Part shown: piece by piece, positions 2,717 to 24,666 of the stretch
Position numbering within the stretch: the stretch's first letter is position 1
Layout: each line of letters opens with the position of its first letter
From: Halobacillus yeomjeoni
GTDB taxonomy: Bacteria > Bacillota > Bacilli > Bacillales > Halobacillaceae
Length of the DNA: 64,000 nt
Direction of reading: 5' to 3'
Assembly (NCBI RefSeq): GCF_020171525.1
Contig: NZ_JAIVAI010000001.1
Coordinates: 1,364,001-1,428,000 of the forward strand
Translations under genes and position numbers: made by a program
Notes under the pieces: model-generated
Databases searched by the model: none
What the model was told of the DNA's origin: nothing
Seen by the model: the letters and a program-made list of their open reading frames with translations, nothing else

Positions 2717-3541
2717 ATGAATGAACAACATTTAATCGCATTAGACTTAGACGGCACACTGTTGACAGACGACAAAGTCATCAGTGAACGTACGAAGAAA
2801 ACCGTCTTACAAGCCATGCAGCAGGGACATATCGTTGTCATCGCAACAGGACGTCCTCACAGAGCCAGTATCGATTTTTATGAAGAATTAGGGTTGGACA
2901 CACCTATGGTCAACTTCAATGGAGCTTTGATCCACCACCCTAAAGATCATCGTTGGGATGCCATTCACTCACCGATTGGAATTCGGACTGCCCACAAAAT
3001 CATTCATGTGTGCCATGAACTTGGAGTGAAGAACATTCTCGCCGAAGTAAAAGATCAAGTATATTTGGATCAATATGATGATGAAATCATGAAAATTTTC
3101 CAAGGAAAAGATGATTCACCAATCACTGTGGGAAGATTACAATCTAATTTGAAAGATGACCCGACTTCCCTCCTTATTCACCCCGAAGAAGATAAAATCA
3201 AAAAACTCCGCGAACGCTTGGACGAAGAAGCTTCTCTAATCGAACACCGCAAGTGGGGCGCGCCTTGGCACGTCATAGAAATTGTCCGAGCCGGGATGAA
3301 TAAAGCTGTCGGTCTTGATAAAATCGCCCGTTATTTCCACATTCCCAAAAGTCGCGTCATCGCATTCGGTGATGAAGACAATGATTTAGAAATGCTCGAC
3401 TATGCTGGAGTAGGTGTCGCTATGGGAAATGCCATTGATGAATTAAAAGCTGTAGCAAAACATGTCACCGGAACAAATGAAGAAGACGGGATCGATGCAT
3501 TTTTGACCGATTATTTGAATCTAAATAAAAAAGCCATGTGA
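2717..3541 (+). CDS. yitU: YitU-like Cof-type HAD phosphatase
   Basis: 274 aa. HAD motif I is LDLDGTLL (N-terminus), motif II IATGRPH (about residue 46), and motifs III/IV a lysine near residue 205 and GDEDNDLEML (about residue 220). This is the Cof/subfamily IIB architecture, acting on small phosphorylated metabolites such as sugar phosphates or flavin/pyridoxal phosphates; the substrate cannot be read from sequence. The ATG at 2717 is preferred over an in-frame GTG at 2708 because GAGGTG (2705-2710) is an ideally spaced ribosome site for it. The leader has an AGTGGGAA / TTCCCACT inverted repeat at about 2650-2690. Confidence 0.9.
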   Translation: MNEQHLIALDLDGTLLTDDKVISERTKKTVLQAMQQGHIVVIATGRPHRASIDFYEELGLDTPMVNFNGALIHHPKDHRWDAIHSPIGIRTAHKIIHVCHELGVKNILAEVKDQVYLDQYDDEIMKIFQGKDDSPITVGRLQSNLKDDPTSLLIHPEEDKIKKLRERLDEEASLIEHRKWGAPWHVIEIVRAGMNKAVGLDKIARYFHIPKSRVIAFGDEDNDLEMLDYAGVGVAMGNAIDELKAVAKHVTGTNEEDGIDAFLTDYLNLNKKAM

Positions 3542-5116: not shown

Positions 5117-5944
5117 TTAATAAGCTTCTTGTTTCCTAAGTTCCCTAAGTAAGTTTTCTAAAACCTGCCTAAGATCCCTGTACTCTCCGTCCAGCATACG
5201 GAAATATAATGCCCGTAATAGGTGCTTCGCATTATTGATAATAATATCTTCTCTTGGATCCTGCCAGCTCTCTCGGTAATAGAGCAGGGTCTCCAGCCAT
5301 TCGACACGATCTATTGGTTGGATTTTTTTGAACATCATCATGATCGCTGTGACCATCCGCTCCTCTTCGTCATATAAGTATGGCTGGTCGATTAAAAATT
5401 GACTTTTAATGATCGGCAGCATTTCTTTCACTTCAGTTTCGGTGATTTCACCACATTCCGCAACATGATGAATGGCATCTGCAGCATGGGCGATCGCGTG
5501 TGCCCACCCCTTATCTTGCACATAACCTCTGTGATCCATTTCCTGTTGCATATATTTCTTTAAATTATCCCACACACGAAGAACTTCAGCTTCTTTTAAA
5601 AATGGGGTTTTTTTATGCTTTTCAATGATGGGCGGAATCAGTAAAACAGAAAAACTACGTTTGAATACAGCATCTTCTTCTTTTTTGGAAGAACTGATTC
5701 TGTAAAACAAATAATTTTTGTTCAAAATTGATTGAAGAATATTCTTTAACTGTTCATGGCTATAGTGACCTCGCTCAATGAAGTTGGTGAATATGGAATG
5801 AATGAGATCATCACGTAAAAACGGATGCACGGACCCGATTTTTTGTAACATCATCGTCGTCAGCTCTTGAAGACTTTGATTTTCAGGCAAAACATAGTCA
5901 TTATTTTTTATTGGTTGTAAAACATCGATCAACCGCGTTTCCAT
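5117..5944 (-). CDS. DUF2785 domain protein
   Basis: 275 aa, helical and soluble. The family hallmark is in the middle: DHRGYVQDKGWAHAIAHAAD, with the conserved Trp-His-His-Asp pattern, followed by an acidic helix repeat. Function is not established for DUF2785. The ATG at 5944 is selected because it follows a G-rich ribosome site (AAGGGGGGGTG); the longer frame to 6001 would add a cysteine-containing leader without a ribosome site. The run of seven G makes this start a plausible target for a C-rich regulatory RNA such as the candidate at 24191. Confidence 0.85.
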   Translation of the reverse strand: METRLIDVLQPIKNNDYVLPENQSLQELTTMMLQKIGSVHPFLRDDLIHSIFTNFIERGHYSHEQLKNILQSILNKNYLFYRISSSKKEEDAVFKRSFSVLLIPPIIEKHKKTPFLKEAEVLRVWDNLKKYMQQEMDHRGYVQDKGWAHAIAHAADAIHHVAECGEITETEVKEMLPIIKSQFLIDQPYLYDEEERMVTAIMMMFKKIQPIDRVEWLETLLYYRESWQDPREDIIINNAKHLLRALYFRMLDGEYRDLRQVLENLLRELRKQEAY

Positions 5945-22205: not shown

Positions 22206-24047
22206 TCATAAACGAACCTTATATTTACTTAACCAATAATTAATTTGACATAAGTGGGCAATCAACTGCGGACCGGTCATCAGCTGTCCGAACCACGGCG
22301 TTTGAATAGACTTCCCTTCTGATTGATTCAACGTAATGATTCTATTCCTATCGAACAAATCAAACAACGGTGCATTCGGGTCTGCTGCGATTTCATTCAT
22401 CCATGTACACACCGCTTTCGTGTAATCAGGATGAAAGGTTTTCGGGTAAGGGTTTTTCTTACGGAACAACACTTTATCAGGAAGGATGCCCCTTAAAGCT
22501 TCACGAAGGAGCCCTTTCTCTCGATCATTATGATGTTTCATATTCCAAGGGATGTTCCAGGCATATTCGACCAATCGATGATCACTGAAGGGTACACGGA
22601 CCTCCAAACTGGCCCCCATGCTCATCCGGTCTTTTCGTTCCAACAACGTCTGCATAAACCAATTCATATTCAAATAGAACATTTGTTTATGTTTTTGAGA
22701 CGCCCTCCCTTCTTCAGGTAAGACGGGAGCTTCATCTATGGTCTCTTGATACCTCCTCAACATGTAGGATTCAATATCCAAATCGTCGTTCAAGTCATCC
22801 AGGATGAGCGACTCACGCGCATGAAGTGAGCGAATCCACGGAAACCCTTTTCGTTGTTGATCTTCTTTACGGTAATACCATGGGTAGCCGCCAAAAATCT
22901 CATCTGCGCATTCCCCTGACAGAGCGACCGTCACATGTTTTTTTATTTTTTCACAAAACCAGAGCAGTGAAGAATCTACATCCGCCATGCCTGGCAGGTC
23001 TCTGAGTTCCACAGCGCGTTTAAGACGATTTACAAGGTCTTCTGTCCGCGCTTCCATCACTGTATGATCGGTCCCGTTCTGTTTACTTACCAATTGAATG
23101 TATGCTTCATCACGGTCAGGTTGGAAGTCATTCTTCTTAAAAAATTTATCCTGATCTTTGTAATCGATGGAGAACGTTTGAAGAGTCCCCATTTTTTCAT
23201 TCTTATAGTGTTCGGCGGCTATTGCTGTAATCGCACTGGAATCAACGCCTCCTGACAAGAAAGTGCCGAGTTTCACGTCTGAGACCAACTGTCTTTCAGA
23301 AGCATCGATGAAGAGCTCTCTAACCCTCTCCACGGTCTCCTGGAACGAGTGAGTATGAGGTTGGCTGACTACATTCCAATAACGTCGAACAGTCAAATTC
23401 CCCTTTTCCCACACAGCAAAATGACCTGGCCGGATTTCTTGCACATGTTTAAATATGCCATGACCAGGAGTTCTGGATGGCCCAAGAGATAATACTTCCT
23501 GCAGCCCTTCTTTATCCACCCTTTCTTCTACATCAGGATGAGCCAGGATTGCCTTGATTTCTGACCCGAACATGAAACCACTCGAGTGATCACTGTAAAA
23601 AAGTGGTTTGACTCCTAAACGGTCTCTCGCTAAAAACAACCGCTCTCTTCTTTTTTCCCAAATCGCAAAAGCGAATATTCCATTCATATGGTCGACACAA
23701 CGTTCTCCCCACTGCATGTAACTGATTAAAACGACTTCAGTATCAGAATGAGATTGAAAACTCCATCCCTTTTCTATCAATCGGTTTCTGATTTCTTCCG
23801 TGTTATACAATTCTCCGTTGTAACAGAGGATATACTTCTCATTGTGGGCTTCCCTGATCATCGGCTGCCTGCCCCCTCGAGGGTCTACAACAATCAACCG
23901 TTGATGTCCAAGAGCTGCTGGACCCTCAATCCACTTCTGATAATCATCAGGTCCACGGTGTCTTAACGTTTCGGCCATCCGATCCAATATCATTGTTTTA
24001 TCAATGAATTTATGATTATAGTCGATCCATCCAACAATTCCACACAC
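22206..24047 (-). CDS. asnO: Glutamine-hydrolysing asparagine synthetase (AsnO type)
   Basis: 613 aa, the length of B. subtilis AsnO rather than AsnB or AsnH. The N-terminal Ntn glutaminase starts MCGIVGW with the catalytic Cys2, with RHRGPDD and CYNGELYN for glutamine binding; the synthetase domain has the pyrophosphate loop SGGVDSS near residue 265 and SGECADEIFGGYPW near residue 360. It converts aspartate, glutamine and ATP to asparagine in the cytoplasm. The start is GTG. Its neighbour yisL is also its neighbour in B. subtilis. A terminator-like hairpin lies in its leader (24092-24123). In B. subtilis AsnO is linked to sporulation. Confidence 0.93.
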   Translation of the reverse strand: MCGIVGWIDYNHKFIDKTMILDRMAETLRHRGPDDYQKWIEGPAALGHQRLIVVDPRGGRQPMIREAHNEKYILCYNGELYNTEEIRNRLIEKGWSFQSHSDTEVVLISYMQWGERCVDHMNGIFAFAIWEKRRERLFLARDRLGVKPLFYSDHSSGFMFGSEIKAILAHPDVEERVDKEGLQEVLSLGPSRTPGHGIFKHVQEIRPGHFAVWEKGNLTVRRYWNVVSQPHTHSFQETVERVRELFIDASERQLVSDVKLGTFLSGGVDSSAITAIAAEHYKNEKMGTLQTFSIDYKDQDKFFKKNDFQPDRDEAYIQLVSKQNGTDHTVMEARTEDLVNRLKRAVELRDLPGMADVDSSLLWFCEKIKKHVTVALSGECADEIFGGYPWYYRKEDQQRKGFPWIRSLHARESLILDDLNDDLDIESYMLRRYQETIDEAPVLPEEGRASQKHKQMFYLNMNWFMQTLLERKDRMSMGASLEVRVPFSDHRLVEYAWNIPWNMKHHNDREKGLLREALRGILPDKVLFRKKNPYPKTFHPDYTKAVCTWMNEIAADPNAPLFDLFDRNRIITLNQSEGKSIQTPWFGQLMTGPQLIAHLCQINYWLSKYKVRL

Positions 24048-24155: not shown

Positions 24156-24188
24156 TTGACACGCTCATTGATAATGATTATCATTATA
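24156..24188 (+). promoter_or_regulatory. SigA promoter overlapped by a Fur box
   Basis: TTGACA (24156-24161), 17-bp spacer, TATCAT (24179-24184). A near-perfect Fur box covers the -10 and spacer: GATAATGATTATCATTATA (24170-24188) matches the 19-bp consensus GATAATGATAATCATTATC at 17 positions. Iron-replete Fur would block this promoter. Confidence 0.85.
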
Positions 24189-24190
24189 AG

Positions 24191-24306
24191 TGATAACAGA
24201 TTCGCTTCCGTTCCCCCCAAATTCGGAAGCATGAATAAGTAATTTCACGTAAACCTTTTACCCCTATATGCGAAAACGCTGCATGTATTTACATGCAGCG
24301 TTTTTA
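24191..24306 (+). ncRNA. Candidate Fur-regulated C-rich small RNA
   Basis: About 115 nt between the Fur-box promoter and a strong intrinsic terminator, with no credible ORF. Hairpin 1 pairs GCTTCCG (24204-24210) with CGGAAGC (24224-24230) and exposes a loop with six consecutive C; a second C-rich single-stranded segment (CTTTTACCCCTATA) lies before the terminator. This layout (iron-repressed promoter, exposed C-runs able to pair with G-rich ribosome sites) is like FsrA, the iron-sparing sRNA of B. subtilis. Homology to FsrA is not shown, only analogy of design. The location, between asnO and yisL, is unlike any FsrA locus I know. Confidence 0.65.
24273..24306. terminator. Terminator shared by the sRNA candidate (+) and yisL (-)
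   Basis: AAAACGCTGCATGTA - TT - TACATGCAGCGTTTTTA, with T tracts on both strands, so it can end the plus-strand RNA and the yisL transcript. Confidence 0.88.
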
Positions 24307-24666
24307 TTATGCTGGAAGTACTCCAGCTCCCAAGAAACCGAAGCCAAGGATGATAGCCGCTATAGCAGCGACAACCAATTGACCCCACCAAAGGGCAGCT
24401 GGCTTTTTCTTTTTATACTTGATAGTAACCATTTCCATGGCTGTTATTGCCCATAAGCCGACAAGCACTTTTATGATGATCAGAGCACCATAACTTTCAT
24501 AGCTCGCAAACAACGAGCCGCCAGAATATAGAATCAATAAATAAAATAAACGTAAAATCATGTGTGAGATTTTTGCCGCTTTTTCTCTTCCTCCACGGGT
24601 GAAAGTGGTTGCCAAACCAACCAGGACCAATGCGATTACCCATGAGGTAATATGTAGATGTGCCAT
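24307..24666 (-). CDS. yisL: YisL family membrane protein (DUF1516)
   Basis: 119 aa, the length of B. subtilis YisL. Four membrane helices (about 7-22, 37-55, 62-80, 94-114) with a positive KYKKKKP loop inside. The order yisL-asnO matches B. subtilis, though yisN is absent between them and is replaced by the Fur-box RNA region. No biochemical role is known. Confidence 0.9.
   Translation of the reverse strand: MAHLHITSWVIALVLVGLATTFTRGGREKAAKISHMILRLFYLLILYSGGSLFASYESYGALIIIKVLVGLWAITAMEMVTIKYKKKKPAALWWGQLVVAAIAAIILGFGFLGAGVLPA

Follow-up and report, generated by a model that had tools for sequence, protein, structure and literature searches.

A predicted Fur-controlled, C-rich small RNA of FsrA-like design beside yisL in Halobacillus yeomjeoni and its kin

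The window analysed here, a 64,000-nucleotide stretch of the Halobacillus yeomjeoni genome, holds a predicted small RNA (sRNA) between an asparagine synthase gene, its divergent neighbour, and a yisL-like gene, which is convergent with it. A preliminary description, drawn from the letters alone, had proposed at this site a Fur-controlled RNA with the design of FsrA in a new place. The features of the locus are as follows:

22206 to 24047, minus strand: asparagine synthase gene (PF00733, 1.8e-94)
24156 to 24161, plus strand: -35 hexamer TTGACA (promoter scan; its first five bases, TTGAC, are invariant in 15 aligned loci)
24170 to 24188, plus strand: Fur box GATAATGATTATCATTATA, overlapping the -10 hexamer (18/19; kept in relatives)
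24179 to 24184, plus strand: -10 hexamer TATCAT, 17 nt from the -35 hexamer (promoter scan; the two together 11/12)
24190 to 24305, plus strand: predicted sRNA (folding, alignment, covariance model)
24191 to 24202, plus strand: 5' element UGAUAACAGAUU, complementary without mismatch over 12 nt to the sdhC leader of H. yeomjeoni
24204 to 24230, plus strand: hairpin 1, with a 7-bp stem and a 13-nt loop containing CCCCCC (sequence, fold)
24256 to 24264, plus strand: second C-rich strand UUUUACCCC (also given as TTTTACCCC), able to pair perfectly over 9 nt with GGGGUAAAA of the acnA ribosome site
24272 to 24305, plus strand: Rho-independent terminator with 15 pairs, a 4-nt loop and a U tail (variants in relatives)
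24307 to 24666, minus strand: yisL-like gene (DUF1516; PF07457, 2e-32)

The promoter is as first described, with a perfect -35 hexamer and five of six bases in the -10. The Fur box over the -10 hexamer, originally put at 17/19, matches the 19-mer GATAATGATTATCATTATC, which we take to be the Fur box consensus, at 18 of 19 positions, 17/19 being the score of the opposite strand. This is the sole site with three or fewer mismatches in the window (0.04 expected), and when a further 400 kb of the genome are added, 464 kb in all, the next-best score is 15/19. Judging from the position of the -10 hexamer, transcription would start at about 24190-24192. Hairpin 1 (GCTTCCG, loop TTCCCCCCAAATT, CGGAAGC) carries the claimed run of six C in its loop, at 24213-24218, and the second C-rich strand and the strong terminator are likewise present. 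The fold of 24190-24308, a stretch that includes the terminator, has an energy of -39.1 kcal/mol (z -8.5), and none of 200 shuffles is as low. No Rfam family matches anywhere in the window at cut-off, and the matches of a permissive scan all lie far below their respective family cut-offs. Short frames are present in the predicted transcripts, and these could point to a small peptide gene or a dual-function RNA. Such a reading is highly improbable: by eye, no conserved frame with a ribosome site was noted among the relatives listed, and some of the changes in the stem of hairpin 1 are compensated, which argues against a peptide gene.

The terminator stem ends at 24305 and the yisL stop codon begins at 24307, so that by sequence the terminator could also be used by the convergent gene. 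An antisense RNA, or a shared terminator, acting mainly on yisL would draw on this abutment and on the possible bidirectional use. However, the predicted RNA ends before yisL begins, and a yisL-directed role leaves the C-runs and the distant targets described below unexplained, which makes this reading extremely improbable.

Searches with blastn found 17 loci with the promoter, the Fur box and the C-runs. The yisL gene adjoins the RNA in all 17, and tblastn found the asparagine synthase gene in 16 of them; rocD is the second gene from the RNA in Halobacillus. The synthase gene deserves attention as a possible object of Fur control, with the plus-strand RNA as a by-product, given that the palindromic Fur box is situated some 120 bp upstream of the synthase start, and that the minus strand contains a 9/12 promoter match at 24140-24111. 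However, this weak match lies clear of the Fur box, which the plus-strand promoter (11/12) does overlap. Furthermore, the C-runs and the terminator are conserved, and the sRNA is kept both in L018, where no synthase gene was found within the flank examined, and in L028, where this gene lies further away. We therefore consider a synthase operator very unlikely.

A covariance model of promoter and RNA, built from 15 of the 17 loci (L017 and L025, with unclear ends, were excluded), matches 39 of the 44 genomes of the family, in all six genera. Since 15 of the 39 are its own seeds, the informative figure is 24 of 29 non-seed genomes, linkage to yisL having been checked for only part of these 24. 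In one of the six genera (g2), the model matches a single genome out of five, and weakly. The closest yisL sequences to that of the window come from named Halobacillus species, a genus that the NCBI taxonomy places in Bacillaceae. A further scan covered 80 named yisL loci, many from the same genomes as the model search, and looked downstream of yisL, on the opposite strand, for a C-run together with a Fur box scoring 15/19 or better. Both are kept in 32 loci, namely, 22 of 22 in Halobacillus, 4 of 4 in Salimicrobium, 2 of 4 in Thalassobacillus, 3 of 5 in Pontibacillus and one MAG; the Fur box is absent in two Thalassobacillus. The remaining 48 loci are without the RNA by this criterion, although three of them (L129, L139 and L146) have fewer than 270 bases downstream, too short to tell. 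Conservation of the loop C-run and the Fur box had been set beforehand as the test on which the initial proposal would stand or fall, and, alongside the model matches, 28 of the 30 yisL loci from Halobacillus, Salimicrobium and Thalassobacillus keep them.

At 28 of the 32 yisL-linked loci (those of Halobacillus, Salimicrobium and Thalassobacillus), the C-run sits in a hairpin loop, and the other four (three Pontibacillus and the MAG) have a C-run without such a hairpin loop. Because shuffled flanks yield a C-run in a loop in 55% of cases, the criterion is weak for a single locus, and the support comes from repeated conservation and from pair changes rather than from any one fold. In a hairpin alignment of 20 sequences, in which the row of the window is out of register, 78% of cells are paired, and 6 of 500 shuffles reach the covariation score. 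These pair counts are modest. RNAalifold on a MAFFT alignment recovered the terminator and not hairpin 1, probably because hairpin 1 shifts between species. At one and the same locus, versions of the RNA are nearly wholly different in sequence yet keep the Fur box and the C-run, and the locus thus suits asking how fast regulatory RNAs change while their job persists.

Two ribosome sites in the window had been offered as example targets, at the starts at 5944 and 44104. Both do have a G-run, but neither belongs to a known iron enzyme: the first gene encodes a DUF2785 protein, and the second, with a TTG start, is an ORF that by eye resembles an AMP-binding synthetase. Better targets lie elsewhere in the genome. 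FsrA of B. subtilis is reported to act on sdhC, citB, gltAB and leuCD (PMC8464778). We located sdhC, acnA, gltB and leuC by protein family in 15 Halobacillus genomes, telling acnA from leuC by length. The ribosome site GAGGGGGGTAAA precedes the sdhC start in all 15 genomes, GAGGGGGTAA precedes acnA in all 13 genomes read of the 15 (the start being taken from an anchored reading in G009 and from a script in the other 12), and GGGGG precedes gltB in all 15, so that the conserved G-runs measure 5-6 G. For leuC, a G-run was found in H. yeomjeoni only (1 of 15). In H. yeomjeoni, all four genes have at least 5 G, compared to 30 of 431 ORFs (about 2e-5 if independent); the published FsrA targets dctP, resA, qcrA and gltD stand outside this count, and the background ORFs, drawn from the 464 kb with starts picked by a simple script, include acnA and leuC.

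When the 431 ORFs are ranked by the length of their best match to the two C-rich strands, acnA comes first and alone reaches 9 nt, and five ORFs reach the 8 nt of sdhC; with the whole RNA, 7 of 431 ORFs reach 9 nt, acnA among them. The whole RNA also forms a perfect 12-nt match with the sdhC leader at the RNA 5' end, a length that none of the 431 ORFs attains (background maximum 10) and that 6 of 20,000 shuffled sRNAs reach. The longest perfect match between sRNA and sdhC varies across the 15 genomes: one genome has 12 nt, four have 9 (GGGGGGTAA), one has 7 and nine have 6. The leaders of yisL, rocD and asnB, taken as controls, attain 8 nt in some of the genomes; pairing of the 5' element itself with sdhC amounts to 4-6 nt in the other genomes of a reduced set. 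In terms of duplex energy, the RNA scores lower with the sdhC leader of its own genome than with the leaders read for yisL, rocD and asnB in 13 of 15 genomes (not in G011 and G012). Within the H. yeomjeoni genome, energy does not single out the targets, with 26 of 431 ORFs equalling or surpassing sdhC and 14 equalling or surpassing acnA. Nor are the genome patterns searched for further targets enriched to any useful degree: GGGGTAA-N1-10-ATG occurs 47 times versus 45 in the reversed control, and another pattern 47 versus 37. The single lutA leader read, in L235, has no G-run.

Coevolution of the 5' element with sdhC was considered and is unsupported once near-identical genomes are dropped. By run length, co-variation gives p 0.20 in 15 genomes and 0.37 in the reduced 11; by energy, it gives p 0.002 in 15 genomes and 0.08 in the reduced set. 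An earlier co-occurrence table (8 both, 5 neither, 2 discordant; Fisher p 0.011) was a by-eye, post hoc tally that ignored kinship. The order of the 5' element and the C-run precludes one continuous duplex. According to PMC8464778, the only FsrA pairing proven in vivo in B. subtilis is that with gltAB, through regions upstream of the C-rich ones, and hence the 5' element of the present RNA may matter as much as its C-runs. A PrkA kinase gene of the same genome (L266:1916-3811, minus strand) has a leader resembling that of sdhC (TCTGTTATGACGGGGG, an 8-nt match to the sRNA 5' end) and is a possible further target.

Taken together, the stretch very probably makes a small RNA that is induced by iron starvation and whose C-runs can pair with the ribosome sites of iron-enzyme genes, sparing iron. 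When iron is plentiful, Fur bound to the box over the -10 hexamer would block the promoter. When iron is short, the RNA would be transcribed up to the terminator, with one C-run displayed in the loop of hairpin 1 and the other single-stranded before the terminator. These would pair with the G-run ribosome sites of sdhC, acnA and gltB, and in H. yeomjeoni perhaps of leuC, stopping translation and saving iron; in H. yeomjeoni, the RNA 5' end might form a further duplex of 12 nt with the sdhC leader, immediately before the ribosome site. Blocking of iron-enzyme ribosome sites by C-run pairing under iron starvation has been reported or proposed for FsrA and IsrR (PMC8464778, PMC9410917 and PMC11257911). 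Observed sequence, conservation, synteny and complementarity form the basis of this scheme, and from them we infer transcription, control by Fur and repression. We consider it likely that the locus encodes a trans-acting, Fur-repressed iron-sparing sRNA of about 115 nt, similar to FsrA and IsrR and residing at a locus of its own. The observation of the preliminary description is thus confirmed and its interpretation supported. Halobacillus and its kin gain a concrete candidate for a regulator of the FsrA type, with named targets and testable bases; a literature search turned up no publication describing a Fur-controlled sRNA for Halobacillus.

FsrA has Fur-controlled partner proteins, FbpA, FbpB and FbpC, of which FbpA and FbpB were sought in the same 15 genomes. 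The FbpB family is represented in all 15, and FbpA exceeds the cut-off in 12, lying below it in H. yeomjeoni. No clear Fur box was found upstream of either, with scores of at most 12/19 in the 11 places read for FbpB and at most 14/19 in the 10 places read for FbpA. A small FbpB-family ORF follows acnA at a distance of about 1 kb (L256, G000:C1:755146-755256, minus strand). In 14 of the 15 genomes, no more than 4 kb separate an FbpB-family match from that of acnA; in G002, the two are on different contigs.

Applied to 398 genomes of the class, the covariance model gave 20 matches, that in H. yeomjeoni included. Rfam identifies two of these, L088 and L089, as true FsrA (115.7 bits), and their recovery serves as a positive control for the search; the FsrA of L088 follows, as read by eye, a YkuI-like EAL gene. 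Three others (L083, L085 and L091) have no C-run. Among the other 14 matches, all but L075 display, by eye, four or more consecutive C after a Fur box, in a sample that is biased because the model itself contains C-runs. Six of these 13 (L073, L074, L078, L079, L080 and L090) were scanned against Rfam at E 0.05 and gave no match. Candidates with a Fur box and a C-run were seen in another family (f36), at about position 1500 of L073, L074, L076, L081, L082, L084, L086, L087 and L090. An ORF near those of L073, L074 and L090 resembles, by eye, an FhuF-type iron reductase, and these three candidates, when scanned, gave no Rfam match. In one genus of f36, L077, L078 and L079 hold, also at about 1500, a Fur-box RNA with five or six C in the likely loop (CCGAGCTG...CTCGG), downstream of rocD with one ORF between. 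It is conceivable, and we advance it tentatively, that the iron-sparing sRNAs of Bacillales form, rather than one family, a lineage-specific set at different loci, comprising FsrA, the yisL-linked RNA and the other-family candidates, which have in common no more than the Fur-box promoter, the C-runs and the G-run sites of sdhC and acnA, and that the yisL-linked RNA replaced FsrA in Halobacillus and its kin. This raises the question of whether FsrA, IsrR and the yisL-linked RNA are related by descent or have separate origins.

The suggested test against the Rfam FsrA model (RF02273) was negative: the model gives no match in the window, at cut-off or up to E 10, and at its cut-off of 80 bits none of 61 genomes (H. 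yeomjeoni and 60 relatives, searched with stricter filters) scores over, the B. subtilis control being detected. Weaker matches of the model in relatives were read at 12 loci and not taken as FsrA, because the best Fur box nearby scores 13/19. The yisL-linked RNA, by contrast with FsrA, which was not found by search there, is widespread in Halobacillus and its kin. It could still have descended from FsrA, diverging and relocating to the yisL locus, and would then be a homologue and not an analogue. The two have the same arrangement of promoter and Fur box, and an RNA of Pontibacillus litoralis (L148, about 2870-2990, minus strand) aligns with an Rfam-confirmed FsrA in a way that 1 of 500 dinucleotide shuffles and none of 300 plain ones equal. 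PMC12871923, in general terms, states FsrA homologues across Bacilli, Staphylococci and Listeria. However, 174 of 300 shuffles align with FsrA as well as the window sRNA does, and of 14 yisL-linked RNAs compared with FsrA, only those of L148 and L111 stand at 1/500, the other 12 ranging from 12 to 468 of 500. The FsrA model lists neither the window nor L148 at E up to 10, nor nine further loci of the yisL-linked type at E up to 0.5, and the neighbours and the placement of the C-runs differ. A distant link to FsrA through the Pontibacillus RNA is possible, from one alignment unbacked by the FsrA model, and we regard the homologue reading as unlikely, favouring the FsrA-like RNA at its own locus.

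Among characterized sRNAs, RoxS/RsaE resembles the RNA described here in its C-rich regions, which pair with mRNAs of central metabolism, and differs in being controlled by ResD and Rex, not Fur, according to PMC8464778; its model, RF01820, has no match in the window up to E 10. IsrR of Staphylococcus is described as Fur-repressed, with 4-7 C in the loop of a stem-loop and further C-rich regions, as having citB and gltB2 among its targets, and as a non-orthologue of FsrA (PMC9410917 and PMC11257911). The RNA of the window likewise has the Fur box and the C-run in the loop of a stem-loop, whereas IsrR, described from staphylococci, has two Fur boxes and three C-rich regions. As for genomic position, FsrA lies next to ykuI, and the RNA of the window between asparagine synthase and yisL. 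The likeness to FsrA comprises the Fur box over the promoter, with the predicted control by Fur, two C-rich regions, a terminator, a comparably small size (FsrA has 84 nt; PMC8464778), and targets or likely targets, here by complementarity alone, in sdhC, citB/acnA, gltAB and leuC. Unlike FsrA, whose C-runs occupy the linker and the terminator loop, the RNA of the window carries one in the hairpin 1 loop and the other in the linker, and its neighbour genes, architecture and sequence are different. The initial characterization as an FsrA-like design in a new place is thus upheld by the Fur-box promoter, the C-rich strands and the G-run sites of sdhC, acnA and gltB. Because both a model match and the locus were tested and neither agrees with FsrA, the best reading is that the RNA would work like FsrA yet is not to be filed as FsrA.
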